Position numbers and translations under genes: made by a program
Notes under the pieces: model-generated
Database searches by the model: none
Told to the model about the DNA's origin: nothing
Seen by the model: only the letters and a program-made list of their open reading frames with translations
Shown: positions 35,698 to 55,326 of the stretch, one piece after another
How the letters are laid out: every line of letters starts with the position of its first letter
Numbering within the stretch: position 1 is the first letter of the stretch
NCBI RefSeq assembly: GCF_007559335.1
Contig: NZ_VMBG01000001.1
Location: 2,294,001 to 2,358,000, forward strand
Length of the DNA: 64,000 nucleotides
DNA from: Rariglobus hedericola
GTDB lineage: Bacteria; Verrucomicrobiota; Verrucomicrobiia; Opitutales; Opitutaceae
Direction of reading: 5' to 3'

Positions 35698-35727
35698 GGC
35701 GACCAAACGAAACAAAAAATCCATGTA

Positions 35728-35749
35728 TGCAACAAAATATCTTGTTGCA
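35728..35749. promoter_or_regulatory. Perfect inverted-repeat operator between sugar-activation operon and its regulator
   Basis: TGCAACAA (35728-35735) and TTGTTGCA (35742-35749) are perfect 8-bp arms around AATATC. The site sits in the 83-bp divergent gap, 30 bp from the nucleotidyltransferase start and 31 bp from the regulator start. It is the obvious binding site for the adjacent GntR-type protein. Confidence 0.7.
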
Positions 35750-35780
35750 AAATGAAGCACGCCACCCTCGTGTTTCATTT

Positions 35781-37125: not shown

Positions 37126-37137
37126 GTAACCACTTAC
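37126..37137. promoter_or_regulatory. LacI operator GTAACCACTTAC
   Basis: It fits GTAA-N4-TTAC. The left flank TTTGC is shared with the operator at 49913-49936. It lies 76 bp before the oxidoreductase start. Confidence 0.55.
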
Positions 37138-37148
37138 ATTTAAATCTT

Positions 37149-37160
37149 GTAACCGGTTAC
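37149..37160. promoter_or_regulatory. LacI operator GTAACCGGTTAC (perfect palindrome)
   Basis: This 12-bp perfect palindrome is 23 bp after the first site, about two helical turns. It lies 53 bp before the oxidoreductase start. It is probably bound by the LacI encoded at 38383 and/or its paralogue at 50030. Confidence 0.65.
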
Positions 37161-37213: not shown

Positions 37214-38365
37214 ATGATTCGCCTCGGTCTCATCGGTATCGGTCAACGTCTCGCTCACATGGTGACGTGCTTCAAAGCCAGCGATCCCTCGCTGCGCATC
37301 GTCGGCGTCGTGGACCCCGACCGCGAAGGCGCCCTCGCCCGCCTCCCCGAGCCCGACCGCGCCCACGTTCGCTTCTTCGACAGCCTCGATGAATTGCTCC
37401 GCGAAGCCCGCCCGGACGCCCTCGCGATCGGCACCCGCTGCAATCTCCACACGCCCCTCGCCATCGCCGCCGCCGCGTCCGGCCTGCCCCTCTTTCTCGA
37501 AAAACCCGTCTCCGTTTCGTTCGCCCAGGCCCACGCCCTCGAGCAAGCCTTCGCCCGCTCCCGCTCCGAGGTCGTCGTGAGTTTCCCGCTCCGCGTTTCC
37601 CATCTCTGCCGCATGGTCAAAGCCCGCGTCGAAGCCGGCGAACTCGGCCGCCTCGAGCATCTCCTCGGCGTGAACTACGTCCCCTACGGCAACGTTTACT
37701 TCGACTCGTGGTATCGCGACTACGCGACGACCCAGGGCCTCTTCCTCCAGAAGGCCACACACGACTTCGACTACCTCACCTACCTCGCCGGCGCACCCAT
37801 CGTCCGCGTCGCCGCCATGGCGCAACAGGGCCGCGTCTTCCGCGACCGCTCCCTCGAACCCGCCGAAGGCGACGACACCCGCACCTACTTCGACAACATC
37901 GGCCGCCCCGAGACCGGCATGAACGAAGACGCCTCCAGCGCCCTCCTCGAATTCGCCAACGGTATCCACGGAGTCTATACACAGGTCTTCTACTCCAAGC
38001 ACGAAGCCCAGGCCCGCGGTGCCACGCTCAGCGGACGCCACGGCACACTCCGCTTCGACTGGTATCAAAACGAGCTCCGCCTCCACCCCCACGCCGAGGC
38101 CGCCACCGTCACCGACCGCCCCCCCGAGGGACTCAACCACTTCGGCGGCGACGGCGTGCTCGCCGAAAACTTCATCAACGTCATCCGCGGCCGCGCCGCC
38201 TCCGCCTCGCCGCTCTCCGCCGGACTCCAGAGCGTTTATGCCTGCCTCGCCGCCCGCGAAAGCGCCGCCACCGGCCGCTTTGTCGCCGTCCAGCAGGTCA
38301 CCGAACTCGCCCCCGCCTCCGAGATTCCCGCCGAGTCCCCCGAACCCGTCGCCGCCTCCGCCTGA
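37214..38365 (+). CDS. Gfo/Idh/MocA family oxidoreductase
   Basis: The 383-residue protein has an N-terminal Rossmann fold (L-G-L-I-G-I-G-Q-R-L and V-V-D-P-D-R), the family signature L-F-L-E-K-P-V near residue 97 and a C-terminal alpha/beta domain with A-T-H-D-F-D-Y-L-T-Y containing the probable catalytic His. Such enzymes oxidise or reduce sugars, inositols or amino sugars with NAD(P), and some cleave glycosides. It is the first gene behind the double operator and is followed after 17 bp by a frameshifted lacI gene. Confidence 0.88.
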   Translation: MIRLGLIGIGQRLAHMVTCFKASDPSLRIVGVVDPDREGALARLPEPDRAHVRFFDSLDELLREARPDALAIGTRCNLHTPLAIAAAASGLPLFLEKPVSVSFAQAHALEQAFARSRSEVVVSFPLRVSHLCRMVKARVEAGELGRLEHLLGVNYVPYGNVYFDSWYRDYATTQGLFLQKATHDFDYLTYLAGAPIVRVAAMAQQGRVFRDRSLEPAEGDDTRTYFDNIGRPETGMNEDASSALLEFANGIHGVYTQVFYSKHEAQARGATLSGRHGTLRFDWYQNELRLHPHAEAATVTDRPPEGLNHFGGDGVLAENFINVIRGRAASASPLSAGLQSVYACLAARESAATGRFVAVQQVTELAPASEIPAESPEPVAASA

Positions 38366-38382
38366 GCCATCCGCCACCCACC

Positions 38383-39404
38383 ATGGATATCCGCACGTTC
38401 TCCTCCCTCATCGGCGTCTCCACCGCCACCGTCTCGCGCGCCTTCTCCGGCCGCGGTGTCGTCGGTGCCGCCACCCGGGAGCACGTGCTCAGCGAAGCCC
38501 GCCGCCTCAACTTCAGCCCCAACGTCCTCGCCGCCGCCTCTCCATGCAATCCAGCGGCGTGCTCGGCCTGTATTATAGTTTCGGCGACGAAGCCATTTTC
38601 GACTACTACAACATGGAGCTCGCGCAAGAGGTCGCCAAAGCCGCCGCATCCGCCGGCTTCGGACTCCACCTCGAACTCGCCCCGCGCCGCACGCCCGTCC
38701 CCACCGACCCCGCCGCGCAACTCGCCGCCCTCGCCGCCGGCAAAGCCATCGACGGCGTCGTCGTGGTCTCTGACGGACACGACAGCGCCCGCCACCTCCT
38801 CGCCCAACTCAAAGGCACGCCCGCCGTCATCCTCACCGGCGAACTCCACGCCGGCCTCGATTGCCTCGCGCAGGTCGTCATCGATTTCGAACCCGGCGTG
38901 CGCGCCGCCGTCGATCACCTCGTCGCCCAGGGACACCGCAACATCGGCTTCGTCCGCGGACTCGGCGACACCGCCAAACTCTCCGCCCTGCAAAAAGCCC
39001 TCGCCGCCCACGGCCTCAAGCCCGCCGACATCGCCATGCGCACCGGCCACAAAACCTTTGCCGACGGCCAGCGCGCCTTCGCCGAACTCCGCGCCGCCGG
39101 TGTCACCGCCGCGATCTGCGCGACCGACATCCTCGCCCTCGGCGCGATCCACGGCGCATCCGCCGCCGGCGTGAAATTGCCACAGGAATTTTCCATCATC
39201 GGCATCGACGACCTTGCCATCGCCGAACACTCGGTCCCCACGCTGTCGAGCATCGGCGTTCCCCGCGCAACGCTCGCCCGTGAAGCCATCGCCGCGCTCA
39301 CGACCGCACTGCGCAAACCAGCCGAAGACGAGACTGCACCGACCGTGCTCCCCGTCTCAACCTACTTCATCCCCCGCGAATCCAGCGGGCCCATTTCCGC
39401 CTGA
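38383..39404 (+). pseudogene. LacI family regulator with an apparent frameshift
   Basis: The N-terminal HTH (starting M-D-I-R-T-F-S-S-L-I, with V-S-T-A-T-V-S-R-A-F-S-G-R-G) reads from ATG 38383 in one frame as far as P-N-V-L-A. The rest (R-R-L-S-M-Q-S-S-G-V-L-G-L-Y-Y-S-F onward, a full PBP-like sensor) reads in another frame to 39404. Comparison with the intact paralogue at 50030 places the break at 38530-38537 within GCCGCCGCC; one extra base there would restore the frame. It may be a real mutation, a sequencing error or programmed slippage. Both halves are otherwise well conserved. It lies 17 bp after the oxidoreductase. Confidence 0.8.
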
Positions 39405-39439: not shown

Positions 39440-40090
39440 ATGAACACGCTCCACCGCCTGCTCGCCCTCCCGGTCCTCGCCCTGACCGTTGCCACCGCTA
39501 ACGCCGGAACATTCGCCGAGATCAACTTGGTTGATAACAGCCTTGCCGACTGGACCGGCATTGTTGCGTCCGCCACCAACACCGGCGCTGGACCGGTAGA
39601 CCAAATCTTCGTGTCCAACAACGACACGCGCCTTTTTATCCTCATCACATTTAAGACAAACACCAATATTCTGACGGACGGCTTTCGTCTGAACATCGAT
39701 AGCGATGGTAATGCAAACACCGGTTTCCACACTTACGGAACACCGAGCATAGGCTCGGAGGTTCTTTTTGAAGGAGACACCGCTTATCGCCAGGCAGACG
39801 GAGTGTATAGCACCGGAACATCGGCGCCTTTTTCCTTGCTCATCGGGCCTTACAACCAAGCCGTCGCCGCGCTTGAGTTCGGCATCGTCCGCACAGCCAT
39901 GGTCGATAGCACGCCGATCTTCCAAAGTGGCACAATCAACTTGGCGACTTATTTTGAATCGCCCGGCAGCTCCTCACTCATCGGGCCGATCAACTACACC
40001 TTCGCCTCCGCCGTCCCCGAGCCCTCCACCTACGCAGCTCTCGCGGGCATGGGCGTCCTCACACTCGCCTTCTTCCGCCGCCGCCGCTAA
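39440..40090 (+). CDS. PEP-CTERM sorting-domain protein
   Basis: The 216-residue protein has a signal peptide ending A-N-A-G-T. The mature part resembles a small beta-sandwich: F-V-S-N-N-D-T-R-L-F-I-L-I-T and L-N-I-D-S-D-G-N-A-N-T-G-F recall DOMON/CBM9-like domains. It ends V-P-E-P-S-T-Y, a hydrophobic stretch and F-F-R-R-R-R. The calcium-like D-S-D-G-N motif hints at a metal-supported ligand-binding fold. It follows the lacI pseudogene by 35 bp and precedes a pseudopilin gene. Confidence 0.85.
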   Translation: MNTLHRLLALPVLALTVATANAGTFAEINLVDNSLADWTGIVASATNTGAGPVDQIFVSNNDTRLFILITFKTNTNILTDGFRLNIDSDGNANTGFHTYGTPSIGSEVLFEGDTAYRQADGVYSTGTSAPFSLLIGPYNQAVAALEFGIVRTAMVDSTPIFQSGTINLATYFESPGSSSLIGPINYTFASAVPEPSTYAALAGMGVLTLAFFRRRR

Positions 40091-40141: not shown

Positions 40142-40807
40142 ATGAACCACTCGTTCTCACGTCGGCGCCCCTCCGGCTTCACTCTCATCGAATTGCTCAC
40201 GGTCATCGCCATCATCGGCGTGCTCGCAGGCATCATCTTCGCCGTCCTCGGCAACATCCGTCGCAGCGCCCAGCAAACCCAGTCGCTGTCCAAGCTTCGC
40301 AACATCGGTTCCGCCGCCTTGGTCTACGCGAGCGAACACCGCGGCGGCCTTCCCGTGTGGCACAATTACACCACGGGCACCTACTGGTGGCGCACGCTTC
40401 AGCCCTATATCGGCGAAGACCTCGAAGCCTTCCACAGCCCGGCCCACACCGGCTTCGACCCGTCGACTCCGGATCGTTTCACCGAGACCATGTCCTACGG
40501 GTGGAACTACGCCGTCAGCGGCCGCCACGTGGGCGACCCCAACCGTGGCAGCAACCACTCGCTGATCGTTAACGATTTCCCTAATCCCACCAAGGTCCTC
40601 ATCGCCGCGGAAGCCCAGGAATCCGCCTACGGTTTCATCGCCGCGGACACACCTCCCGCCCAAGGCCGCTACGGTGAAAATGTCCCCTCCGTCTTCCTCG
40701 ATGGGCATGTCGATAGCCGTCCCTACTCCGAGTTTCTACAGACCGCACCCTGGTTCGTCGGCCCCAAAGAAGTCCCCCCCTACATTCCCACTCCGTCTCC
40801 CCAATGA
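40142..40807 (+). CDS. Prepilin-type (pseudopilin-like) protein
   Basis: The 221-residue protein has a short basic leader and P-S-G-F-T-L-I-E-L-L-T-V-I-A-I-I-G-V, the prepilin cleavage/methylation motif and helix. K-L-R-N-I-G-S-A-A-L-V-Y-A and the late V-F-L-D-G-H-V-D follow as in the pseudopilin at 28674. The stop overlaps the start of the GH114-like gene (ATGA at 40804-40807), so the two are translationally coupled. Coupling of a pilin-like protein to a glycan hydrolase is unusual. Confidence 0.88.
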   Translation: MNHSFSRRRPSGFTLIELLTVIAIIGVLAGIIFAVLGNIRRSAQQTQSLSKLRNIGSAALVYASEHRGGLPVWHNYTTGTYWWRTLQPYIGEDLEAFHSPAHTGFDPSTPDRFTETMSYGWNYAVSGRHVGDPNRGSNHSLIVNDFPNPTKVLIAAEAQESAYGFIAADTPPAQGRYGENVPSVFLDGHVDSRPYSEFLQTAPWFVGPKEVPPYIPTPSPQ

Positions 40808-42726
40808 AACCGACCTTTCTGCTTTTCCTCGCCCTCCTCTGCGCCACCGTCTCCGCCCAAGCCCAGCCCTTCACCCAGCCCGCCGCCGCAACGACCGCCC
40901 CTGAAGGCACCGGCCTCATCGCCGCCAACGCAGCCGTCGCCAACGGCATCCTCACCCTCAGCCTCAAATCCAAGGGCGGCGAATTTACTGCCTGGACCCA
41001 TGTCTTCATCGATGTCGGTCCCGCCGCCAAACCGTCCTACAACCACACCTCCGGAAAACCCGCCGGCAACGGCCTCGAAATCCTCCTCGAGGGTTCGCAG
41101 GCCTACCGGTTCAACAGCGATGATCCCCACGTCTGGTCCTGGACCCCGCTCGCCGGCGTCACCGTCGAACGCACCGTCACCGGCGACACGCTCACCCTCA
41201 AAACCGCCCTCGCCCCCCTCGGCCTGCCCTCCGGCGGCACGGTGAAAATCTTCGCCGCCACCTACACAGAGAACTACGCCGACACCCTCGACACGATCCC
41301 ACGCGACACGCGTTCCTGGACCTTCACCGTTCCTAAATACAACGCCCCGCTCCCCGGTGCCAAAACCACCTCCGCCGTCACACCCCTGCCCGCCCGCACC
41401 GACGCCCGCACCGCCTTCAAAAAAATCCAGTCTTACTCCTGCTTCTACGGCCCGGGCCGCACCACCGACCTCCTCACCCGCGACGCCGCCATCATCGAAA
41501 CCCGCGCCCAATCCGTCGCCGAAGTGAACGCCCTCCGCGCCGCCGGACGCCTCGCGATCGGCTACATCTCCATCGGCGAAGACTCCGAACTGCGCACCGG
41601 CGACACCAAAGGCCCCGGCGGCTACGACTCCGCCTACTTCGATCGCAACGCCGACAATCTCCCCGACAAAAACGAAACCTGGAACTCCTACTTCGCCAAC
41701 GCCGCCTCCCCCGCCTGGCGCGCGCACTTCCTCGCCCGCGCCGACGAGATCATCAAGTCCCACGGCGTGGACGGCTTCTTCCTCGATACCGTCGAAACCT
41801 CCCTCAGCTACCGCGACTCCTTCCCCGCGATGGTCTCGCTCATCCGCGAGCTCCGCGCCCGCCACCCCGCCGCCGTCATCGTCCTCAACCGCGGCTGGGA
41901 CCTCCTCCCCGACCTCGGCGCCACACCCGACGGCATCATGTTCGAAAGCTTCACCCTCAGCTACGACTTCGCCGAGAAACGCTACGTCACCATGCGCCCC
42001 TCCGCCTGGGACCACGGGCTCGAGGTCTGGCAAACCCTCATCCACCCCGCGCAAAAGAAGCATGGCCTCGTCGCCCTCGCGCTCGACTACGCTCCCGCTG
42101 CCGACAGTCCCGAGATCGCCCTCGCCTACGACCGCGCCGCCACGCTCGGCATGATCCCCTGCGTCACGTCCATCATGCTCGATGCGTTCTACGACATCGC
42201 TTACCAAGGCCGCACCGACGCCCGCTGGCTCTCCCCCGCCGAGACCGCCGACACCCGTATCGTAACCTTGGATACCGAGCGCAACGGCTTCCCCGCCGGC
42301 ACCCGCGTCACCCCGAGCTCCAACTACGCCGACTACACCGTCGCCGCCGTGATCGACGGCGTCGCCGACAAAGACTCTCTCGGCTGGCGCGACCGCGCGT
42401 GGGCCTCCACCGAAAGCCGCACCGAGCACTCCCTTGAGTTCACCTTCCCGCCCGTCGCCTCCGCCACCGGCGTGACCATCGACTGGGCCCGCGACAACGG
42501 CCGCGCCTTTCCCGCCCGCGCCTTCCGCGTCGAAGTCCGCCCCGCCGGCCCCGACGCCACCGCCTGGACGCGCATCGCTCAAGTAAAGGACAACACCGTC
42601 GGCCGCAGCCTCATCACCTTCGATCCCGCCACGATCACCGCCCTGCGCATCGTCCAATCCGTCGCCGGCGGCGCCTCCGACCGCCCCAATCTGATGTGGG
42701 TCCAGCAAGTCAGCCTCGTTCGCTAA
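40804..42726 (+). CDS. Secreted GH114-like (endo-alpha-1,4-polygalactosaminidase-type) hydrolase
   Basis: The 640-residue protein has a signal peptide ending S-A-Q-A-Q. An N-terminal beta domain (about 25-180) precedes a TIM barrel (about 195-470) with I-G-Y-I-S-I-G-E-D-S, H-G-V-D-G-F-F-L-D-T-V-E-T and I-V-L-N-R-G-W-D, as in GH114/TM1410-like proteins. The Asp and Glu in these strands are catalytic candidates. The last 140 residues form a discoidin-like module that is clearly related to the C-terminus of the protein at 46261-49914. GH114 founders cleave galactosaminogalactan-type polymers; the substrate here is inferred only. Confidence 0.65.
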   Translation: MKPTFLLFLALLCATVSAQAQPFTQPAAATTAPEGTGLIAANAAVANGILTLSLKSKGGEFTAWTHVFIDVGPAAKPSYNHTSGKPAGNGLEILLEGSQAYRFNSDDPHVWSWTPLAGVTVERTVTGDTLTLKTALAPLGLPSGGTVKIFAATYTENYADTLDTIPRDTRSWTFTVPKYNAPLPGAKTTSAVTPLPARTDARTAFKKIQSYSCFYGPGRTTDLLTRDAAIIETRAQSVAEVNALRAAGRLAIGYISIGEDSELRTGDTKGPGGYDSAYFDRNADNLPDKNETWNSYFANAASPAWRAHFLARADEIIKSHGVDGFFLDTVETSLSYRDSFPAMVSLIRELRARHPAAVIVLNRGWDLLPDLGATPDGIMFESFTLSYDFAEKRYVTMRPSAWDHGLEVWQTLIHPAQKKHGLVALALDYAPAADSPEIALAYDRAATLGMIPCVTSIMLDAFYDIAYQGRTDARWLSPAETADTRIVTLDTERNGFPAGTRVTPSSNYADYTVAAVIDGVADKDSLGWRDRAWASTESRTEHSLEFTFPPVASATGVTIDWARDNGRAFPARAFRVEVRPAGPDATAWTRIAQVKDNTVGRSLITFDPATITALRIVQSVAGGASDRPNLMWVQQVSLVR

Positions 42727-42745
42727 CTGCCCCTCCGGCTACGTC

Positions 42746-42795
42746 AGTCCGTCTGTTCTCCGTCTTCTGCTCTCCGCCCTCCGTATTCCGCCCCC
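42746..42795. repeat. CT-rich TCTGT/TCCGT imperfect repeat (copy 3)
   Basis: The tract runs from TCCGTCTGTTCTCCG to CCTCCGTATTCCGCC directly up to the symporter start codon, and it matches copy 1 (1043-1092) in order of units (TCCGTCTGTTCTC at the start, GTATTCCG later). Confidence 0.6.
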
Positions 42796-44769
42796 GTGCA
42801 CACCCTCGACTGGCTCATCCTCGCCGTCTCCCTCTCCGCGCTGCTGATCGTCTGCGCACGCGCCGGCCGCCACATGAAAGGCGTGTCCGACTACCTCGTC
42901 GCCAGCCGCTGCGCCGGCCGCTACCTGCTCACGCTCTCCGAGGGCGCCGCCGGTCTCGGCGCCATCACCATCGTCGGCACCTTTGAAATCTTTTTTAACG
43001 CCGGCTTCGTCCCGCTCTGGTGGGGCTACTTCCTCGCCCCGCTCGGCCTCTTCATCGCCCTGAGCGGCTTCGTCATCTACCGCTACCGGCAGACGCGTGC
43101 CATGACGATGGCCCAATTCATCGAGATGCGTTACTCGCGCAAATTCCGCCTCTTCTTCGGCGCGCTCACGTTTGTCTCCGGCGTCATCAACTACGGCATC
43201 TTCCCCGCCGTCACCGTCCGCTGCTTCATGCAGTTCTGCGGAATCCCCGCCACGCTCGCCCTCGGCGGCGTCGACATCCCGATGTTCCCCGCCCTCATGG
43301 CACTCGAACTGGGCCTCGCCCTCGGCCTGGTCTGGATCGGCGGACAAATCACGATCCTCATCTCCGACTTCCTGCAGGCCGCCTTCTGCATGATCGTGTT
43401 CATCATTCTCATGGTGTTCTTCCTCTGGCTGATGCCGTGGGGCGACTTGCTTACCGGTCTCGCCGCCGCACCCGCCGGTGCCTCGATGGTGCATCCGTTC
43501 AAGACCGGCAACTCCGCCGACTTCAACACCGCTTACTACCTCATCGGCGCCTTCATGGTGGTTTACACCACCCGCGCCTGGCAGGGCACCTCCGGCTACA
43601 ACGCCTCCGCCCGCTCCCCCCACGAAGCCCGCATGGCCGGCATCCTGGCCAACTGGCGCTCAATGGGCCAGAACCTCGCGCTCCTGCTCATGCCGCTCTG
43701 CGTTTACGCCGTGCTGCACAACCCCGCCTTCGCCTCGCAGGCCGCCGAGATCCAGGCGCTCCTCGCCAACATCTCCGATCCCGTCACCCGCGCGCAACTC
43801 ACCGTCCCCGCCGGCCTCACCGTGCTGCTGCCCGTCGGCTTCCTCGGACTCCTCGCGACCGTGCTCGTCGCCGCCGCCCTCAGCACCGACAACGCCTACC
43901 TCCACTCGTGGGGCAGCATCTTCATCCAGGACATCGTTCTCCCCCTGCGCAAAAAACCGCTCGAGCCCGTGCAACACGTCCGCTGGCTCCGCCGCTCCTC
44001 GCTCGGCGTCGCGCTCTTCGCCTTCGCCTTCAGTCTCCTGTTCCCGCTGAAAGACTACGTCTTCATGTTCTTCGACATCACCGGCGCCATCTTCCTCGGC
44101 GGCGCCGGCGCCGCCATCATCGGCGGACTCTACTGGCGCCGCGGCAGCACCGCCGCCGCGTGGTCGGCCATGATCACCGGCGGTGTGCTTTCCACCGGCG
44201 GACTCGCCGTGCAAAGCGCCTGGCCCTCCTACCTTTCCCCGTGGCTGCAACACCTGTTCACCGACAACGCCTGGCTCCTCACCCACGCCGCCAAATTCCC
44301 CTTCAACGGCCGCGAAATCATGTTCGGTGCCATGCTCACCGCGTTGCTCGTCTATGTGATCGTCTCCCTCTGCGGGCGCACCCGTTTCGACCTCGAAACC
44401 ATGCTCGGCCGCGAAGCCCGCGTCGCCCACGACCCGCTCGCCGCCCCGCGCTTCGGCTGGCGCGAACGCCTCGCCGAAACCCTCGGCAGCGGTCCCGAAT
44501 TCACGCGCGGCGACCGCTTCATCTGCCGCGGCACGCTTGTGTGGACGCTCGCCTGGTGGCTCATCTTCGTCATCGGCACCCTCTACAATCTCGCTGTCGA
44601 CGTGCCCGACTCCTCCTGGGCATCCTTCTGGAAATGGAACATCTGGATCAGCATCCCCATCGGCATCGGCGCAACCGTGTGGTTCCTCCTCGGCGGCATC
44701 CGTGACTTCCGCCAGATGTTCATCGACCTCCGCGCCCCCCGCACCGTCACCGCCGAAGATGGCCGTTAA
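42796..44769 (+). CDS. Sodium:solute symporter (SSS) family transporter
   Basis: GTG 42796 gives a 657-residue membrane protein with about 13-14 hydrophobic segments. The early part (W-L-I-L-A-V-S-L-S-A-L-L, then G-V-S-D-Y-L-V-A-S-R) and S-E-G-A-A-G-L-G-A-I-T-I-V-G-T match the SSS start, where the bound sodium is coordinated near TM1. Such proteins import sugars, sialic acid, amino acids or other solutes with Na+. Its place between a GH114-like hydrolase and a beta-helix protein suggests uptake of the released sugar. The stop lies 11 bp inside the next gene. Confidence 0.9.
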   Translation: MHTLDWLILAVSLSALLIVCARAGRHMKGVSDYLVASRCAGRYLLTLSEGAAGLGAITIVGTFEIFFNAGFVPLWWGYFLAPLGLFIALSGFVIYRYRQTRAMTMAQFIEMRYSRKFRLFFGALTFVSGVINYGIFPAVTVRCFMQFCGIPATLALGGVDIPMFPALMALELGLALGLVWIGGQITILISDFLQAAFCMIVFIILMVFFLWLMPWGDLLTGLAAAPAGASMVHPFKTGNSADFNTAYYLIGAFMVVYTTRAWQGTSGYNASARSPHEARMAGILANWRSMGQNLALLLMPLCVYAVLHNPAFASQAAEIQALLANISDPVTRAQLTVPAGLTVLLPVGFLGLLATVLVAAALSTDNAYLHSWGSIFIQDIVLPLRKKPLEPVQHVRWLRRSSLGVALFAFAFSLLFPLKDYVFMFFDITGAIFLGGAGAAIIGGLYWRRGSTAAAWSAMITGGVLSTGGLAVQSAWPSYLSPWLQHLFTDNAWLLTHAAKFPFNGREIMFGAMLTALLVYVIVSLCGRTRFDLETMLGREARVAHDPLAAPRFGWRERLAETLGSGPEFTRGDRFICRGTLVWTLAWWLIFVIGTLYNLAVDVPDSSWASFWKWNIWISIPIGIGATVWFLLGGIRDFRQMFIDLRAPRTVTAEDGR

Positions 44770-46111
44770 ATCACTCCGGTTTCCTGCCTTTATCCTGCTC
44801 GCGGTTCTCTGTGCCCATTCACTCGGAGCCGCGACCTACGTCGTCAGCCCCTCCGGGAAAAACACCGCCGCCGGCACGCTCGCCGCACCGTGGAAAACCC
44901 TCGCCCACGCCGCGACCAAAGCCCGACCCGGCGATACCGTCGAGGTCCGAACCGGCATCTATGCCGAACGCCTGCTCCTCACCCGTTCCGGCACCGCGCA
45001 GGCCCCGATTATCTTTCGCGCCCGCTCCGGCGAAACACCCGTGATCGACGGTGCCAAGCTCTCCACCGACTCCGGCTGGCTCCCGCTCTTCTGGCTCCAA
45101 GGCGTCAGCCACGTCACCATCCAGGGTTTCGAGCTGCGCAACTACTACACCGCGCAAAAAAACCGCGTGCCCATCGGCATCCTCATCAACGGCTCCGGCA
45201 CAGGGGTGCGTCTGCTCAACAATCACATTCACCACCTCGGCACGACTTACACCGGCGCCAATGGAGGCGATGCCCATGGCATCGCCATCTACGGAGACGA
45301 AAACACTCCCATCCGCGACCTCGTTATCCGCGGCAACCGCCTCCACCACCTCAAGCTCGGTTCCAGCGAAGCCCTCGTGCTCAACGGCAACGTCACCGGC
45401 TTTCTCGTCGAGTCCAACACTGTCCGCGCCTGCAACAATATCGGCATCGACGCCATTGGACATGAGGACACCTGCCCCGACCCCGCGCAAGACGCCGCCC
45501 GCAACGGTATCATCCGTTTGAATACTGTTTACGGCATCAATTCCTACGGAAACCCCGCCTACGGTAAAAACCATTCCGCCGGCGGCATCTACGTGGACGG
45601 CGGACGCGACATCCTCATCGAGCAAAACACCGTTTACGATTGCGACATCGGCATCGAGCTCGCCAGCGAACACGCCGGCGAATCCACGAGCGGCGTCACC
45701 GTCCGAAAAAACCTCATCCACCACAACCGCATCGGCGGACTCTTCATGGGCGGCTACGACACGAAGCGCGGCCGCACCGAAGACTGCTTGATCGAGGAAA
45801 ACACCTTCGTCGAAAACGACACGCTCCGCTACGGCAACGGGGAAATCCAGCTCCAGTTCGATGTGCGCGACACGATCATCCAAAAAAACCTCATCGTCAC
45901 GAACACCCAATCGCTCGTCATCGGTAACTCCTACACCCAAAACACGGGCACCACCGTCGATTACACCACGCTCTACACCCCTGCCAAACCCCGCTGGCAG
46001 TGGAAAAACAAATCCTACTCCGGCCTTTCCGCCTGGCGCACCGCCTCCAAACAAGACACCCACTCCAAAGTCCTAAGCACCCGCCCCAAGAACCTCCCCA
46101 CCGCTCCGTAG
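44759..46111 (+). CDS. Secreted right-handed beta-helix protein (pectate lyase/NosD-like)
   Basis: ATG 44759 overlaps the symporter end by 11 bp and gives 450 residues with a signal peptide ending L-G-A-A. The mature protein starts T-Y-V-V-S-P-S-G-K-N-T-A-A-G-T-L with P-W-K-T-L-A-H-A-A, the usual start of DUF1565-type beta-helix proteins. Repeating coils follow (I-E-Q-N-T-V-Y-D-C-D-I-G-I-E-L, I-E-E-N-T-F-V-E-N-D). This fold is shared by PL and GH28-like enzymes acting on acidic or galactosamine polymers. No certain catalytic residues can be named. Confidence 0.8.
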   Translation: MAVKSLRFPAFILLAVLCAHSLGAATYVVSPSGKNTAAGTLAAPWKTLAHAATKARPGDTVEVRTGIYAERLLLTRSGTAQAPIIFRARSGETPVIDGAKLSTDSGWLPLFWLQGVSHVTIQGFELRNYYTAQKNRVPIGILINGSGTGVRLLNNHIHHLGTTYTGANGGDAHGIAIYGDENTPIRDLVIRGNRLHHLKLGSSEALVLNGNVTGFLVESNTVRACNNIGIDAIGHEDTCPDPAQDAARNGIIRLNTVYGINSYGNPAYGKNHSAGGIYVDGGRDILIEQNTVYDCDIGIELASEHAGESTSGVTVRKNLIHHNRIGGLFMGGYDTKRGRTEDCLIEENTFVENDTLRYGNGEIQLQFDVRDTIIQKNLIVTNTQSLVIGNSYTQNTGTTVDYTTLYTPAKPRWQWKNKSYSGLSAWRTASKQDTHSKVLSTRPKNLPTAP

Positions 46112-46133
46112 CGGAACGGCAGAACAACTTGTC

Positions 46134-46198
46134 GCGCGAAGGACGCTAAGTCCGCGAAGGGTTCTTAACTTACCTCCGTTCCTTCGCGTCCTTCGCGC
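46134..46198. terminator. Perfect 13-bp inverted repeat between convergent genes
   Basis: GCGCGAAGGACGC (46134-46146) and GCGTCCTTCGCGC (46186-46198) are exact reverse complements around a 39-nt loop. It lies between stops at 46111 and 46261 and probably terminates transcription from both sides. The surroundings are rich in TTCGCG and CTCCGT units. Confidence 0.6.
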
Positions 46199-46260
46199 TC
46201 TTCGCGAGACCCCTTCCTTCCCTCAGAGACTCCGTGCCCTCCGTCCTCTCTTCGCCACAC

Positions 46261-49200
46261 TCAGTTCGCCTCCAGTTCCGTCAGCCACATGATGCCCGGT
46301 CGCTCCGGCGCACCCTGCCCCGGGCTCTGAGTCACCCGCAGCGTCTTCAGCATCTGACGCGGAAACGTGACCCGCGTCATCCGCTCGCCCGGCTTTGATT
46401 TCCAATTCGCGATCGGCAACTCCTGGCCAGTCGCCACTTCCCCAAGGATAACGCCCTCGCGTCCCGTGTAGGCCACGCCGCCTTCATGGTTCCAGTGGAT
46501 GATCACTTCCTCCACCGCGACCGGCTGCGGGAATGCCAGCCGCACCCAATGCTCGCCCGGGCCGTCCTCCGACGCCCAAGCCGCCTCGTTCCACGCCAGA
46601 TTCGCACCATCGGCCACACCGTCATTCAAAGCCTTCGCCGAATATCCGCCAAACGTGCTGTCCGCCGACACCTGCACACCCGGCCCGCTCGCCAGACTCT
46701 CACGCGCCGTGAGAAACACCACGCGGCACTCCTCCGCCCACCACTCCCGCCCGCCCGACGACAGCGTCATCTTCAACGTCACCGCCCCGCCCACCTTCGG
46801 ACGCTCTACCGGCAGCGAAACCACTTCCTGCGCGCCCGCCGCCAACGTCACATTCTTCCGTCCTCCCGTCCACTCCACCACCGCCTCACGCGCCTCGGCG
46901 GTGTGATTCGTCACCGTAACCGCCACCGCAGTCTTCGCCTCACGCGTGACCACGCGCCGCCCCGGTCCGCTCGCCTCCACCGGCGAAACCGCACGCACCC
47001 GCACCACGCGCGAAAACTCCACGCCATTCACGCGCCACGCCACCACGCGCGTCTCCGCATCCGTCGCCGGCAACACCACCCGCAACTCCTGCGATTCACC
47101 CGCCGTCACCTTGACCGGCTCTCCTCCCGCAACGCCCACCGTGATCGTATCCGTCTTGTCATTACGCACTAAAATCCGCCACGCCGACGCCTCACCCGTG
47201 ATCACCGCACCCGCCGGCGCAACATCCACGCGAAAACCCGCCGCCTGCTCACGCTCCAACGACTCCAGCGAGCGCAGCGCCGCCTTCGCCTCATCGCCGC
47301 CCGAGCGCCAGCCACCCAAAAACGCCCGCTCATCTGCGAACCGCTCCGGCGCCACCAAGTCGAGCACAAGTAACGCATGCGGCTCCAGCGCCACCGGCAA
47401 CCGCGCACCCGCGTCCACCCAGCCGCCAAATCCCGTCAACGGATCCAGCCACGCCACCCGCCCGATCCCCGCCGGCATCACCAGCTCGGTTACCCGCCGC
47501 GTCTCGGTCTGATTCTGCAACGTCAGGTGCCACAGCCCGCCCGCCGCGCGACCAAACTGCTCCAACCGCACGCCCTCTGCATCCGCCAAGCGCGCCTCAC
47601 GCACCGGCTCCCAGCCCGCGTCCGACACACGCCGCGTCAGCGGCACATACGTCTTAAAAAGATGCCGGTCCCGCTCCAGCAGCTTCACATCATGCCAGTA
47701 AGGATTGTCCGCCGCGTTGTGACTGAAAAAACTCGGCTGAAATCCATACGCCACGCACGTCTCGAAATACCGGCGCAACGGCTCGCCCTCGAACGTCTCA
47801 AAATCCGTGGACTGCAAAAACCCGAACGGCTTCCGCCCCGAAAGCGCCCTGCGGTAATCCAGCCGCGTCCGGCTGTTCGGGTTGTATTGCCCGCCGCTCC
47901 ACCAGTCGGTCTCCTCGCCGGGAATATCGATCCAGCGGTTAATGAACGGCGAATCCACCAGCGAAAAATTCGCCATCAGGTATTTCCCGCGCGCCCGCAG
48001 CAACGCCCCGAGCGTCGCCGTGAATTCATACTGCGGCACATTCGGCGCCATCACCGGCACGCGCCCCGCACGCGTGTAAGTCCCCGGATAATCCGCCGCC
48101 TGAAACGCCGCCGCCGCGTGATCCGGCTGCACGATCGCATCCATCGAATCCAAATAAATGCCGTTCACCCGCGGATCATCCAACCACTCCGCGATGCGTT
48201 TCCATTCCGCCTCCGCGCGATTGAGTCCGTCCGGCGTTGCCCGCGCCAGATCCGGATCGCTGCTCACTTCCATGCGCGCGCCCTTGTTCCAGGGCAGGTC
48301 CATGAACTTCGTGTGGATGTCCCCATTCCCATCCCGCGCCGCGCCCGCCAATCCCGACGCTGCCAGATCGCGACTCCAACCCGAACCGAGCGCGGACAAC
48401 TGCCGCACTTTCTCCAACGCCCGCGCCGGCGTGCGCGTCTCACCGTCGTCAAACGGAAGCCAGTATAGCCACGGCTCCGCATACATCAGCGTGAGAATCC
48501 CGTTCTGCTTCGCGTAATCCACATCCGCCCCGCGCTCGCCGACCTTTTCAAAAAACGAGAATCCAAAATCCTCCGCCTCCGGCAGCTTCGAGATATCCGA
48601 AAACGGCATCCACAAGCCCGAACGCGGCACGCGCCGTTCCGCATAATCCGGATACCGCTTATAAAACTCCGCCAGTGCCGCGCGAAATCCGCCTTCCTCT
48701 CCGCGCTCGACTGCATAAACCGAAAACCGGAATGTCGCCTGCCCCGGAAACTTCGCCGTCTCCGGCGTGAGCGCCAGATCGTAGTTGGCTTTCAAATACG
48801 TCGCTCCCGCGCCCAGCGCGAACACCCGCGGCTCCGCCGGATCGGTCTCGATCACCCACGCCTTCGCACCGTCTTCGACCACGCCGATCGGATAATACGA
48901 CTGCCGCGCATCCAGCCCGTAACGTCCGCCCGCAAAATTCCCATACACCGGTTCATCCGTGCCGATCACGCGAGTCGTGCTCATGTCGTCCGCCCACGTT
49001 TTTCCGGCAAGCGGCAGCGCCAGCCCAGCCTCAATGCGCAACACCCGCGCCGCATCGTCGCGCAGCCAGCCCGTCACCCGCAGTTCGCCCGCACGCGGCG
49101 CATCCGCCACCAACACCCAAGAAACGCCCACCGCTTCGCCCGCCCACGCGAAATTATCGCCCTTCCGCCACATCCGCGTCGGCACCAACCCAACCGCCTC

Positions 49201-49914
49201 GCCGCCCGTCGCGTCGCGCAACGCCGCCTCCAACCGCGCCTCTGCCGGAAGCCCGAGCGCGCCCAGCCGTTCTGCCAGCGCCGCAAACGCCACGCCGCCG
49301 CGCACCGGTGTCCACTCGCTCAAATTCGGTCCGCCATTCAACGCCACCGAAAGCGATTTCGGCCGCATCGCCAAAAACGGCTCCATATCCACCGCTGCCG
49401 TTTCGGCAGGACGCGCCATCTCCTTCAACTTCGCCGGATCGCCCACCGCCGCCGCGCCGCTCGCCGGCCAGCGTTGCCCCACGTTCCAATCCGGCGTCGT
49501 CACTTCCGCGAACCAAGAAAACGGACGCCCGAATTCCGGCGCGCTCACGATGCACACCAACTCGCCCGCCTTCGCCTGAAACACCGGCGCGCCGATGCGA
49601 TTCCACGACCACCCCGTCCCGCCCGCCGGATAGGCGTAGAACGACGGCCCCTCCACTAAAAAATCCGCCCCCGACGACGGCTCGCCCGCCTTCGGCTTCG
49701 TATCGAAATAAAACCGCATCCGCTCCGGCGCCAACGTGCCCTCGTGTTCCAAAATCACCGCCACTGCATCCGGCATCCCCGCCACGCGCTCCACCCGCGC
49801 TCCCGTCACTTGCGCATCCACCTCTTTCACCGACCCAATAAATCCAACAACCATCAGCAATCCAGTAACTAAGCCCATCCCTTGTTGCCCGTGAAACGCG
49901 GTCAATTTCATCAT
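46261..49914 (-). CDS. Large secreted putative glycoside hydrolase, family not recognised
   Basis: The 1217-residue protein starts at one of two adjacent ATGs (49914 or 49911) with a signal peptide ending V-D-A-Q. The N-terminal third is beta-rich. A central TIM-barrel-like region begins with G-L-W-M-P-F-S-D-I-S and carries G-I-L-T-L-M-Y-A-E-P-W, V-N-G-I-Y-L-D-S-M-D (candidate catalytic Asp) and Y-L-M-A-N-F-S. Ig-like domains follow. The last 140 residues are a discoidin-like module related to that of the GH114-like protein. A strong operator touches its start codon and the divergent lacI gene lies beyond, so it is almost certainly regulated by LacI. Confidence 0.6.
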   Translation of the reverse strand: MMKLTAFHGQQGMGLVTGLLMVVGFIGSVKEVDAQVTGARVERVAGMPDAVAVILEHEGTLAPERMRFYFDTKPKAGEPSSGADFLVEGPSFYAYPAGGTGWSWNRIGAPVFQAKAGELVCIVSAPEFGRPFSWFAEVTTPDWNVGQRWPASGAAAVGDPAKLKEMARPAETAAVDMEPFLAMRPKSLSVALNGGPNLSEWTPVRGGVAFAALAERLGALGLPAEARLEAALRDATGGEAVGLVPTRMWRKGDNFAWAGEAVGVSWVLVADAPRAGELRVTGWLRDDAARVLRIEAGLALPLAGKTWADDMSTTRVIGTDEPVYGNFAGGRYGLDARQSYYPIGVVEDGAKAWVIETDPAEPRVFALGAGATYLKANYDLALTPETAKFPGQATFRFSVYAVERGEEGGFRAALAEFYKRYPDYAERRVPRSGLWMPFSDISKLPEAEDFGFSFFEKVGERGADVDYAKQNGILTLMYAEPWLYWLPFDDGETRTPARALEKVRQLSALGSGWSRDLAASGLAGAARDGNGDIHTKFMDLPWNKGARMEVSSDPDLARATPDGLNRAEAEWKRIAEWLDDPRVNGIYLDSMDAIVQPDHAAAAFQAADYPGTYTRAGRVPVMAPNVPQYEFTATLGALLRARGKYLMANFSLVDSPFINRWIDIPGEETDWWSGGQYNPNSRTRLDYRRALSGRKPFGFLQSTDFETFEGEPLRRYFETCVAYGFQPSFFSHNAADNPYWHDVKLLERDRHLFKTYVPLTRRVSDAGWEPVREARLADAEGVRLEQFGRAAGGLWHLTLQNQTETRRVTELVMPAGIGRVAWLDPLTGFGGWVDAGARLPVALEPHALLVLDLVAPERFADERAFLGGWRSGGDEAKAALRSLESLEREQAAGFRVDVAPAGAVITGEASAWRILVRNDKTDTITVGVAGGEPVKVTAGESQELRVVLPATDAETRVVAWRVNGVEFSRVVRVRAVSPVEASGPGRRVVTREAKTAVAVTVTNHTAEAREAVVEWTGGRKNVTLAAGAQEVVSLPVERPKVGGAVTLKMTLSSGGREWWAEECRVVFLTARESLASGPGVQVSADSTFGGYSAKALNDGVADGANLAWNEAAWASEDGPGEHWVRLAFPQPVAVEEVIIHWNHEGGVAYTGREGVILGEVATGQELPIANWKSKPGERMTRVTFPRQMLKTLRVTQSPGQGAPERPGIMWLTELEAN

Positions 49915-49936
49915 TTGCGTAATTAGTTACGCAAAT
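49913..49936. promoter_or_regulatory. LacI operator, perfect 10-bp arms, overlapping the start of the large hydrolase gene
   Basis: ATTTGCGTAA (49913-49922) and TTACGCAAAT (49927-49936) flank TTAG. The core GTAATTAGTTAC at 49919-49930 matches the two sites at 37126 and 37149. The left arm overlaps the start codon of the minus-strand hydrolase gene. It lies 93 bp before the divergent lacI start. Confidence 0.75.
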
Positions 49937-50029: not shown

Positions 50030-51052
50030 ATGGATATTAAGAAGTTCTCCGTTCTCGCCGATGTCTCCACCGCCACGGTTTCCCGCGCCTTTTCCGGCCG
50101 CGGACGCATCAAGGAAGAGACCCGCCAGCGCATTTTCGCCCTCGCCGCCGAGCACGGTTACACGCCCAACATCCACGCCCAGCGCCTCAACGCCCGGCGC
50201 ACCGACATCATCGCGGTTTACTACAGCTTCAGCACCGCCGCGATTTTCGACTACTACAACATGGAGCTCGCCCAAGAGATCGCCAAAGCCGCCGCCGCCC
50301 GCGACTACACGACCAACCTCGAGCTGACCCAAAAAACCGCCGAGCCCTCCCTCGGTCTGCAACGCGCCGCGGCCGGTGGCGGACTCGACGGCATCATCTT
50401 GGTCGCCGACTCCCGCAGCGGCGCCCTCGCCTTCCTCGAGCGTTTCAAAACCCTCCCCGTCGTCGTCATCGCCAACCACGATTGGGATCTCCCCGAAGCC
50501 GCCGGCCTCGTCCGCATACACCAGGACTCCGGCATCGCCGAAGCCATCGCCCAGCTGAAAAACGCCGGCCACACCCGCATCGGTTTTATCCACGGCCTGG
50601 CCGACACCGCGAAACACGACGCCTTCCTCCACGCTCTCCGCGCCGAAGGCCTCGACGCCGACTCCGCCCCCACCGCATCCGGCCCACTCTCCTTCGAAGA
50701 CGGCGAACGCGCCCTCGCCGAACTTCTCCCCACCGGCGTCACCGCCGTCCTGTGCTCGACCGACATCCTCGCGCTCGGCGCCATCAGCGGCGCGGACAAA
50801 CACGGCCTGCGCGTGCCGAAAGACATCTCGATCATCGGCATCGACAACCTCTCCTTCGCCCCCTTCACGCGCCCGCCCCTCGCCAGCGTCGGCATCCCGC
50901 GCACCGAGATCGCCGCCGCCGCCGTGGAGCAACTTCACCAACTCATCGAAGACGCCACCGCACCCGTCCCCCGCGCCTCCGCCCAGTTGATCCACACGAT
51001 CAACACCCGCTTCATCCCCCGCGCCTCCCTCGGCCCGGTTCTTCAGCGATAA
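50030..51052 (+). CDS. LacI family transcriptional regulator (paralogue of the frameshifted copy)
   Basis: The 340-residue protein has the HTH V-S-T-A-T-V-S-R-A-F-S-G-R-G at about 12-25, the hinge region, and a PBP-like sensor with I-F-D-Y-Y-N-M-E-L-A-Q-E-I-A-K-A-A-A in common with the broken copy at 38383. The recognition helix is identical in the two, which explains why they share operators. It is divergent from the large hydrolase gene. Its end overlaps the PIG-L gene by 10 bp tail to tail. Confidence 0.93.
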   Translation: MDIKKFSVLADVSTATVSRAFSGRGRIKEETRQRIFALAAEHGYTPNIHAQRLNARRTDIIAVYYSFSTAAIFDYYNMELAQEIAKAAAARDYTTNLELTQKTAEPSLGLQRAAAGGGLDGIILVADSRSGALAFLERFKTLPVVVIANHDWDLPEAAGLVRIHQDSGIAEAIAQLKNAGHTRIGFIHGLADTAKHDAFLHALRAEGLDADSAPTASGPLSFEDGERALAELLPTGVTAVLCSTDILALGAISGADKHGLRVPKDISIIGIDNLSFAPFTRPPLASVGIPRTEIAAAAVEQLHQLIEDATAPVPRASAQLIHTINTRFIPRASLGPVLQR

Positions 51053-51894
51053 CGCGTCAGCCGTCCCGCGACATCCGCCTTCAAGCGCTCGATGTGCGCC
51101 GCGATAAACGCATTCACATCCAGCGTCGCATCCGTCACCAGCGGCGTCAGGTCCACTGCCCAGGTGATACCCGCGACTTTGTCCGACGCGTGCGACGTGT
51201 GAAACGTCGCGTTCGCACAACGCCGCCCGATCGTCGCCAGGTCGTAGCGTTTTCCTCCGCTGATCTGTGAATCGAACACCTTCAGCAAATCCGCCGCCAG
51301 CGCCGGATGCCGCCCCGAATCGAGGACCACTTTGTCCGCATCCACCAACCAATCGAGATCGCGCCACACTTCGCAGCCGAGCACGCGCTTCGGCCTGCGC
51401 TCCACTGGCAACGAGCGCAATGCCGTGAGGCAGCGCAGCAACACCGCGATGTGCGTGTCATGCTTGTCCGCCGGCTGGTGCAGATACACCACCTCGGGCG
51501 AACACGCCGAAAAAATCGCCGTCAAATCCGCCGCCACGCCCGCATGTCCCGCCTGCTTCACATCCGCGCTCGGATGCGCCAGCTGCACCTGAATCGCGTA
51601 GCTCCCGATATCGGCCGCCTTGCGCTGCTCCTCGCGACGGATCTCCTGCATTTGCTCGTCGGTGAACTGCGCATACGGTCCGATGCGCGACGATCCCGCG
51701 CCGTTCGTGACGACCACGCCGCCAAACGCCTTGTCCGCCGTCTCCAGACAATCCGAGATGCCCGCGTGCGCCATGATCTCAATGTCGTCCTGATGCGCCG
51801 CGACACATAGGTGCGTCACCGCCGCGAGGGCCGCCTCGGGCGAACGCGCATCACCGGGAACATACACATCAGCCTTGGAGTGGGAAAATTTCAT
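51043..51894 (-). CDS. PIG-L/LmbE family deacetylase
   Basis: The 283-residue protein has the zinc motif A-H-Q-D-D at about 33-37 and a later H-Q-P-A-D-K-H-D-T-H segment with the third His ligand. The family deacetylates N-acetylglucosaminyl compounds or related substrates. It is third in a minus-strand operon after the ROK-like gene (44 bp gap). Unlike the LmbE-like domain in the NagB fusion two genes upstream, its metal motif is intact. Confidence 0.88.
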   Translation of the reverse strand: MKFSHSKADVYVPGDARSPEAALAAVTHLCVAAHQDDIEIMAHAGISDCLETADKAFGGVVVTNGAGSSRIGPYAQFTDEQMQEIRREEQRKAADIGSYAIQVQLAHPSADVKQAGHAGVAADLTAIFSACSPEVVYLHQPADKHDTHIAVLLRCLTALRSLPVERRPKRVLGCEVWRDLDWLVDADKVVLDSGRHPALAADLLKVFDSQISGGKRYDLATIGRRCANATFHTSHASDKVAGITWAVDLTPLVTDATLDVNAFIAAHIERLKADVAGRLTRYR

Positions 51895-53336: not shown

Positions 53337-53341
53337 GGTAA

Positions 53342-55252
53342 TCAAGCTCCGGGCATCCAGCGGCGAAAGGCTTCAATGGCTTCGTAATCGGCGAGACCCA
53401 ACGCGTCATACGTCGTGGCGAGATCCCGGTTTTGTTTCTCAGCCTGCTGCCACGGTTCGCGCAGACCCGACGCCACCGCCGAGTGCCCGCGTTGCGAGCG
53501 ATGCGGGAAAATCGCCTGCGTCTTCTGCGAGAGTTCACGCGGGCTCACCGGCACCGCCATGTCGATCTCCGCCGCGTCGCACGGCGTTTCCACCCCGTGA
53601 TACAGCCACACGCGGCAGTCCGAAAACCAATCGTCACCGGCGAATCCTACACACGCATTTCCTACCAGCGAGAAACACACTCCCGCAACCGATGAGGGAT
53701 CATCCCGGTCGCCAGTGACGAAAATCTGATGAGGCCGCACCTCCGCCAGCAGCCGCGCAATCGCCTCGCGATCCGCCGCCCCCGGCTTGAACTGCCGATA
53801 ACGCCCTTCCTCGTAAAACGGCAGGTCGATGAACCGCACCGCCTTCTCCGCGAGTCCGCACAACTTGATCGAGGCCCGCGCCTCGCCGCGTCGCACGAGT
53901 CCCTTCAACCGCCGCACCTGCGCCGAGTCTCCCACGAACGCGGATTTCTCCAGCAACTCGCCGCGCACCACACGCGCAAATGCCTCCGCCGGTCCTGCCT
54001 CTCCGGGAAAACACCCCGCGAGATCCGACACAAAATCTGTCGCCATCAACGCGTCCGCATCCGGCACCGCGAGATTGCCCGAGGTCTGGTAAACCACCGT
54101 GACTTGGTGTCCTTGATCGACCAGCCGGCGTAGCGTCCCGCCCATGCCGAGCATGTCGTGCGACGGCTCGGGGCTGAACACCACCACGCGCTTCGACGCC
54201 GGCTCCGCCCGCTCCGGGCGATGCGTGTCGTCCGCCCCCGGCTTGCCGCCTGGCCAACCCGTGATCGTGTGCTGCAGCTCGTTAAAAATCCGGATATTCA
54301 GATCGTAAACCGATCCCTGCTCCGTGAGCAGATCCGCCATGCCGTGCTCGCTGTAATCTTCATCGAGCAGCTTGAGCACCGGACGCCCCACGGTGTGCGA
54401 CAGCCACACCACTGCGCGCCGCGCCATCTCGGGCGTCCACGCAACCGGCCCGACCAGCCACGGGTGGCGCATCCGCGTGAGCGCCGACGCCGCCGACCCG
54501 TCGATGTAGAACCTCACATTCGGATGCCCCTGCAAAAAACTCGCCGGCAACGTGTCCACCGGCGCGGCTTCGACCGCCTGCGCCAGCACCCCCGCCTTCG
54601 ACTCGCCCCACGCGAGGAGCACAATGCGTCGTGCATCCAGAATCGTGCCCACGCCCATCGTGATTGCATGACGCGGCACGTTGGCCTCGCCCAAAAAATC
54701 GCGCGCCGCATCGCGCCGCGTCAACCCGTCGAGTGTCACCAGCCGAGTGCGCGACTCGCGCGTCGAACCAGGCTCGTTGAAACCGATGTGTCCCGTGCGA
54801 CCGATGCCGAGCACCTGCAAATCAAGCCCGCCCGCCGCCGCGATCTTGTCTTCGTAGGCGCGACACGAGCCAAACACCTCGCCGCGCGGCAACGTGCCGT
54901 TGGGCAGGTTGATCTGCGCCGCCGGCAGATCGATGTGGTTGAACAGCTGCTCGTGCATGAAGCGCCAGTAGCTCTCCGGATGATCGCGCGTCAGCCCGTA
55001 GTATTCATCGAGGTTGAACGTGATGACGTTCTTAAACGAAAGCCCTTCCTCCCGATGCATACGGATGAGTTCGCGATAAAGCCTCACCGGCGTGGAGCCC
55101 GTCGCGAGCCCGAGGACAACACCCTTTCCGGCCGCCGCGCGCTCGCGAATCAACGCGGCAATCTCGCCCGCCAGCTGACGTGACGCGGCGTCCGCATCGG
55201 CAAAAATCTCGGTCCGGATACGTTCGCGCTGCTGGGATTCGGAGGTGTGCAT
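53342..55252 (-). CDS. NagB-type glucosamine-6-phosphate deaminase fused to a degenerate LmbE-like domain
   Basis: ATG at 55252 gives 636 residues; earlier in-frame codons lack similarity. The N-terminal NagB domain (about 10-290) has G-L-A-T-G-S-T-P, F-N-L-D-E-Y-Y-G-L (Asp82) and G-I-G-R-T-G-H-I-G-F-N-E-P-G-S (His155, Glu160), although the usual Asp before G-H is Thr. The C-terminal half resembles LmbE/PIG-L, but the zinc motif (normally HPDDD) reads E-P-S-H-D and the later D-P-H-G-T-H is D-P-S-S-V-A. NagB converts GlcN6P to Fru6P and ammonia. It begins an operon with the ROK-like kinase and PIG-L genes. The fusion is known elsewhere; the altered zinc site is the unusual part. Confidence 0.85.
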   Translation of the reverse strand: MHTSESQQRERIRTEIFADADAASRQLAGEIAALIRERAAAGKGVVLGLATGSTPVRLYRELIRMHREEGLSFKNVITFNLDEYYGLTRDHPESYWRFMHEQLFNHIDLPAAQINLPNGTLPRGEVFGSCRAYEDKIAAAGGLDLQVLGIGRTGHIGFNEPGSTRESRTRLVTLDGLTRRDAARDFLGEANVPRHAITMGVGTILDARRIVLLAWGESKAGVLAQAVEAAPVDTLPASFLQGHPNVRFYIDGSAASALTRMRHPWLVGPVAWTPEMARRAVVWLSHTVGRPVLKLLDEDYSEHGMADLLTEQGSVYDLNIRIFNELQHTITGWPGGKPGADDTHRPERAEPASKRVVVFSPEPSHDMLGMGGTLRRLVDQGHQVTVVYQTSGNLAVPDADALMATDFVSDLAGCFPGEAGPAEAFARVVRGELLEKSAFVGDSAQVRRLKGLVRRGEARASIKLCGLAEKAVRFIDLPFYEEGRYRQFKPGAADREAIARLLAEVRPHQIFVTGDRDDPSSVAGVCFSLVGNACVGFAGDDWFSDCRVWLYHGVETPCDAAEIDMAVPVSPRELSQKTQAIFPHRSQRGHSAVASGLREPWQQAEKQNRDLATTYDALGLADYEAIEAFRRWMPGA

Positions 55253-55326
55253 AAGTGGGACGGGGATAAATTCGATGCTTCCCACCCTACTCTTTCGCCG
55301 GCATATCGAGAATAGCTTTACCGCCT

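Follow-up and report, generated by a model that had tools for sequence, protein, structure and literature searches.

What do two glycosidase-like proteins do at one locus when they are encoded face to face and end in the same domain? The genes lie in a window of 64,000 nucleotides (the whole stretch analysed) from Rariglobus hedericola, contig NZ_VMBG01000001.1 of assembly GCF_007559335.1, positions 2,294,001 to 2,358,000. They encode protein A (40804-42726, + strand, 640 residues) and protein B (46261-49914, - strand, 1217 residues). A preliminary description of this DNA, made from the sequence alone, correctly gave the two genes as convergent, and a transporter gene and a β-helix gene lie between them. 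The explanation we favour, with a probability of about two in three, is that the common C-terminal module anchors two secreted glycosidases to a Pel-type or galactosaminogalactan (GAG)-type α-1,4-galactosaminan, under the control of one amino-sugar regulon. Probably, the bacterium feeds on galactosamine-containing biofilm polymers of the kind made by other microbes.

The C-termini of the two proteins are homologous: residues 483-637 of protein A and 1062-1215 of protein B are 31 % identical (BLASTP, E 5e-16). Four common motifs noticed earlier are indeed present in the same order in both, namely DGVAD, AWAS, V-x-I-x-W (VTIDW / VIIHW) and RP-x-x-MW (RPNLMW / RPGIMW). The R. hedericola genome (4.15 Mb, 99.99 % complete) contained only these two copies when searched with the module of B, and a search with the Pfam F5/8 type C family (PF00754) returned the same two plus one weak extra match. 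The distribution was surveyed in 372 genomes of the order, and relatives are referred to below by labels such as G006 and G449. Nine genomes yielded the 15 strongest matches to a profile of the module, all scoring 170-199 bits; the next best match had 43 bits, so that the scores were sharply bimodal. All 15 strong copies sit on homologs of B (nine) or of A (six). Both modules are present in six of the nine genomes, and that of B alone in G633, G691 and G479. Fifteen positions, including three tryptophans and one tyrosine, are invariant in all 15 copies.

The suggestion that the module represents an undescribed family of carbohydrate-binding modules (CBM) did not hold. The copy of A is above the PF00754 cut-off (30.7 vs 28.2 bits), and of 13 module sequences searched at E ≤ 1, 12 matched F5/8 type C and 10 DUF7402 (PF24135). 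The copy of B scored below the PF00754 cut-off both within the full protein (17.4 bits) and alone (21.1 bits); against DUF7402 it exceeded the cut-off alone (29.0 vs 27), the full protein remaining below it (23.3). When a profile of the 13 sequences was compared with solved structures, a β-galactosidase and the chitosan-binding CBM32 modules DD1/DD2 were found with E about 1e-4 to 2e-3 (about 2e-4 for DD1/DD2 of Paenibacillus sp. IK-5, which have the same β-sandwich fold). The model of the module of A was closest to chitosan-binding CBM32 4zz5 (Z 16.4, root-mean-square deviation (rmsd) 2.9, 130 residues) and 4zxe (Z 16.1), these being tied with galactose oxidase and the Tn-antigen-binding CBM32 4a44 (Z 15.7). 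That of B resembled the CBM32 of NanJ, 2v72 (Z 14.6, rmsd 2.7, 130 residues). Because the copy of A passes the F5/8 cut-off and both models fold like CBM32, the module is, by profiles and models, a divergent CBM32-like (F5/8 type C) subgroup and no new fold or superfamily. It differs from CBM32 and PF00754 in that the copy of B is under the cut-off and in forming a separate group, which ends in a characteristic RPxxxW. The described GAG-binding module is CBM87 of Agd3, which has a reductase-like α/β/α fold according to PMC7229062. It would have its ligand in common with the module studied here, but the β-sandwich of A and B is not the CBM87 fold.

Protein A is predicted, from profile matches and its model, to be an enzyme like the PelA hydrolase (glycoside hydrolase family 166, GH166), and may cleave Pel or a related galactosaminan. 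Its barrel matched the PelA hydrolase domain already as a single sequence (phmmer, E 2.1e-18), and a profile of the barrel found PelA 5tcb among PDB sequences with E 8.8e-26, followed by GH191 with E 3.9e-5. The model superposed on PelA with Z 28.5 and rmsd 2.2 over 246 residues at about 24 % identity, the corresponding Z values being 25.8 for GH191 and 21.1 for the GH114 enzyme Ega3. Protein A also passed the Pfam cut-off of GH114 (PF03537; 29.9 vs 27), though PelA is nearer. The endo-galactosaminidases of GH114 and GH191 have the same barrel fold, but A scores lower against their solved members than against PelA. D160 and E218 of PelA align with D328 and E381 of A, and both of these residues were invariant in each of two alignments, one of 7 rows and one of 11. 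The similarity to PelA (5tcb, 9cgy) therefore includes the catalytic pair. Unlike PelA, A carries a CBM32-like module and lies in a gene context that looks catabolic and unlike a pel operon; a Pfam scan found no PelA deacetylase domain in A. The PelA hydrolase cuts Pel, an α-1,4-linked polymer of N-acetylgalactosamine (GalNAc), and was inactivated by changing D160 and E218 together (PMC12022489). The same source places full-length PelA homologs in Verrucomicrobiota and many homologs away from pel operons. The catalytic Glu is printed as Glu223 in PMC12054363 and as E218 in PMC12022489; we use E218, as in the latter and in the title of PDB 5tsy. The endo-galactosaminidase families given as known in PMC12054363 are GH114, GH135, GH166 and GH191.

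The N-terminal domain of A is more variable. It is fused to the barrel in the window and in G449, missing in G225, G384, G457 and G468, and stands alone at the position of A in G633 and G691; in G479 that position is empty.

The more novel part of the locus is the catalytic region of B, on which the preliminary description laid no stress. The model of B is of high confidence (mean predicted local distance difference test score, pLDDT, 90.4) and suggests an α-glycosidase fold for this region: the GH66, GH36 galactosaminidase, GH31, GH129 and PelA folds are tied as its closest matches, with Z 14.4-17.3. At E ≤ 0.1, no Pfam family of glycosidase catalytic domains, those of GH66, GH36, GH129 and GH31 included, was matched by any of the 33 members of the alignment of B; there was one weak match to Malt_amylase_C. 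None of 26 members matched an NCBIfam model, and sequence comparison, including a profile search of PDB sequences, found no credible solved structure for the region. Among 28 aligned members, 26 keep the candidate catalytic acid D589 and 24 keep the other, E668. B is thus a candidate, by alignment and model, for a new glycosidase family outside Pfam and NCBIfam.

The two enzymes had been called unrelated hydrolases, which was too strong. In the structure comparison, the barrel of B aligned over 235 of 253 residues (rmsd 3.7) with that of PelA, the nearest relative of the barrel of A. A direct HHalign comparison of the two barrels, weak and suggestive only (probability 37.8, E 3.4e-4), paired GIYLDS of B with FFLDT of A and IPGEET of B with MFES of A. 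Judging by the models, the barrels are distant relatives in fold.

Both genes had also been described as lying near GTAA-N4-TTAC operators. This is so for B, where the site starts 16 bases before the start codon, and applies to A only via a presumed operon: a double site precedes the gene for a Gfo/Idh/MocA oxidoreductase (MocA), 3.6 kb ahead of A, the intervening genes running in the same direction. The window contains three exact sites against 0.06 expected, and none of 100 shuffles reached three. The operator is conserved. It was found within 300 bases upstream of B in all eight genomes with the start of B in the sequence, and upstream of MocA in nine of nine, the start codons of some genes in this survey having been set by hand. 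Base-shuffled upstream stretches contained the pattern in 0.1-1.6 % of cases. Conservation extends to G449, whose genes for A and B are not linked but lie far apart on the chromosome. The adjacent LacI-type proteins presumably bind the operator. In the LacI-type gene at 38383-39404 the DNA-binding and sugar-binding parts are in different reading frames, and G633 matches it over the full length; this may be a real break or a sequencing error.

Genes for amino-sugar metabolism are linked to the pair. The recurrent order in relatives is MocA, LacI, PEP-CTERM protein, prepilin-like protein, A and symporter, and B lies nearby together with a LacI gene; in G479 the cassette lacks A. The N-acetylhexosamine 1-kinase NahK (E ≤ 1e-40) occurs in 165 of the 372 genomes, i.e. 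in eight of the nine with the module and in 157 of the 363 others (Fisher p 0.0075), and lies inside the cassette in all eight module genomes having it. A more distant genome outside the order, G006, has a GH166-like gene without the module that adjoins homologs of NahK, the nucleotidyltransferase, the epimerase and NagB. The carriers of the module outside the order are B-like proteins of G074 (two), G206, G079, G114 and G244, an FG-GAP protein of G371 and a 480-residue protein of G074. Amino-sugar genes were found near three of these eight (the second B-like protein of G074, that of G206 and the 480-residue protein); the G244 carrier was judged by its BLAST range alone, and the G079 and G114 loci over 7.5 kb only. 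In the 480-residue protein (L143 3192-4631, - strand), which adjoins a NagB gene, a B-like β-region is joined straight to the module, and the barrel part that matches elsewhere is absent.

Taken with the exclusive pairing and the conserved common operator, this linkage supports well, albeit indirectly, the earlier prediction that both modules bind the same glycan. According to the explanation favoured here, both A and B would most likely be secreted, as read from their hydrophobic N-termini. The module would hold each enzyme on a polysaccharide of α-1,4-linked galactosamine or GalNAc. A would be a retaining enzyme that uses D328 and E381 to make internal cuts in the chain, while this chain or its fragments would also be the substrate of B. 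The products would be imported by the sodium:solute symporter (SSF), GalNAc being phosphorylated by NahK and then activated and epimerised, and the PIG-L enzymes would deacetylate the amino sugars, which NagB would deaminate. A and B would be switched together through GTAA-N4-TTAC, on which LacI-type repressors would act. The polymer might come from other bacteria or from fungi.

The common module, the exclusive pairing, the family relations, the conserved operator and the linkage of genes are shown by the analysis, whereas the ligand, the substrate, the chemistry of B and the operator-binding regulator are inferred. Several observations weigh against this explanation. The folds closest to B are tied among several families, and NahK acts on N-acetylglucosamine as well as on GalNAc. 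No NahK match at E ≤ 1e-40 was found in G225. The hydrolase domain of A is missing together with its module in G633, G691 and G479, where B is kept, so the pair is not obligatory. Near 19 distant B-like loci (up to about 9 kb of flank), NahK was found once and other amino-sugar genes not at all, and therefore the substrate of B cannot be read across the whole B-like family; a view of that family as galactosaminidases was unsupported. Across the whole genome GTAA-N4-TTAC shows no enrichment, with 14 sites as against 23 for the reversed control. The pattern alone is unspecific, and a genome-wide regulon drawn from it alone was rejected.

A different glycan with GalNAc in it, for instance from algae or of the mucin-type O-glycan kind, is also a conceivable, though unlikely, target of the locus, the PelA-like domain having drifted in specificity. 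The model of B does resemble enzymes that act on other substrates and release α-linked GalNAc (Z 16.3 across 534 residues for FpGalactosaminidase 9ayu, Z 14.8 for NagBb 5wzp), and the tie of the module of A with the Tn-antigen-binding 4a44 points the same way. However, A keeps the catalytic pair of PelA, and no other solved family comes as close to it as PelA does. In addition, a Spherulin4 (GH135-type) gene adjoins B in three of the nine genomes, with GTAA-N4-TTAC upstream in all three. We take Spherulin4 to be the family of GH135 Sph3.

Some F5/8 type C domains bind proteins or lipids, and the module could accordingly be a structural or protein-interaction discoidin domain, duplicated locally, instead of a glycan anchor. 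We regard this as very unlikely, since both host proteins are glycosidase-like and the 15 positions with their aromatic residues are identical in every copy. Moreover, in the module tree the modules of A form one clade (support 0.998) separate from those of B across the nine genomes, and a recent local duplication was rejected on this ground; the 480-residue carrier of G074 falls inside the B-module group on a very long branch, so the tree is not clean in this region. Least probable of all is that the PelA-like enzyme serves in biosynthesis or remodelling of an own galactosamine exopolysaccharide, as the PelA hydrolase normally does in Pel biosynthesis (PMC12022489), with NahK, the nucleotidyltransferase and the epimerase making UDP-sugars and possibly supplying UDP-GalNAc. 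PelG was not found in the own genome, and the annotated genes of the cassette include those for an importer, LacI regulators, PIG-L and NagB but none recognised as a glycosyltransferase.

Pel and GAG, both cationic, are polymers of the biofilm matrix of bacteria and fungi. The best-studied galactosaminan hydrolases (PelA, Sph3, Ega3) come from polymer-making organisms, as stated in PMC12054363. If a galactosaminan is indeed the target, the locus would be a regulon for consuming such a polymer and thereby a lead to organisms that degrade it in nature, to a new family of glycosidases (B) and to a galactosaminan-binding module. A full-text literature search, with subscription journals mostly outside its coverage, found, among the papers listed, no report of such a utilisation locus or of a CBM32-type module with galactosaminan specificity. 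The fuller proposal, in which a dedicated galactosaminan regulon of Opitutia-class Verrucomicrobiota, a new glycosidase family founded by B on that polymer and a CBM32-type galactosaminan binder come together, is tentative, its odds being somewhat short of even. The features of the locus are collected in Table 1.

Table 1 Features of the locus, with positions in the window
Feature	Position	Strand	Basis or remark
NAD-dependent epimerase	32720..33667	-	
N-acetylhexosamine 1-kinase (NahK) homolog	33664..34788	-	PDB 4wh1/4ocj, E 1.6e-77
Sugar-1-phosphate nucleotidylyltransferase homolog	34801..35778	-	
Double GTAA-N4-TTAC operator (sites 37126 / 37149), before the presumed MocA to A operon	37126..37160		Exact pattern, conservation
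Gfo/Idh/MocA oxidoreductase, first gene of the presumed A operon	37214..38365	+	
LacI-type regulator, frame broken between DNA-binding and sugar-binding parts	38383..39404	+	
PEP-CTERM protein conserved in cassette	39440..40090	+	
Prepilin-like protein conserved in cassette	40142..40807	+	
N-terminal domain of A, residues 1-184	40804..41355	+	Alone in two relatives, missing in others; low model confidence
Catalytic domain of A (residues 200-472, including D328 and E381), predicted GH166-type, like the PelA hydrolase	41401..42219	+	PelA profile match, model, residue alignment
F5/8 type C / CBM32-like module of A, residues 485-640	42256..42723	+	PF00754, homology to module of B, model match 4zz5
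Sodium:solute symporter (SSF)	42796..44769	+	
Right-handed β-helix protein	44696..46111	+	Frame given, start not fixed
CBM32-like module of B, residues 1064-1217	46264..46725	-	Homology to module of A, DUF7402, model match 2v72
Residues 205-860 of B, putative catalytic region with D589 and E668 as candidate acids	47335..49302	-	Alignment, model; no Pfam/NCBIfam catalytic family
GTAA-N4-TTAC operator before B	49919..49930		Exact pattern, conservation
LacI-type regulator next to B	50030..51052	+	
PIG-L type N-deacetylase	51043..51894	-	
Glucosamine-6-phosphate deaminase (NagB) fused to PIG-L	53342..55285	-	

Among the neighbouring genes, the epimerase is presumably GalE-like. GH109 activity was looked for in the MocA-family protein and was unsupported, its matches being to generic Gfo/Idh/MocA only. 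A 468-residue protein (51939-53345, - strand), which we assume to be ROK-like, had no Pfam match and has a 58 % homolog in the GH166-like locus of G006. In G633 a large protein (L103 2494-5817, - strand) with a distant A-like barrel and repeats like those of the PEP-CTERM protein lies between the symporter and B. In G384 an 811-residue frame (L036 8259-10691) with a weak fn3 match and its own GTAA-N4-TTAC site lies between the Spherulin4 gene and B. The β-helix protein is weakly similar to the pectate lyase PelN, and G457, G468 and G479 likewise have it next to the symporter.

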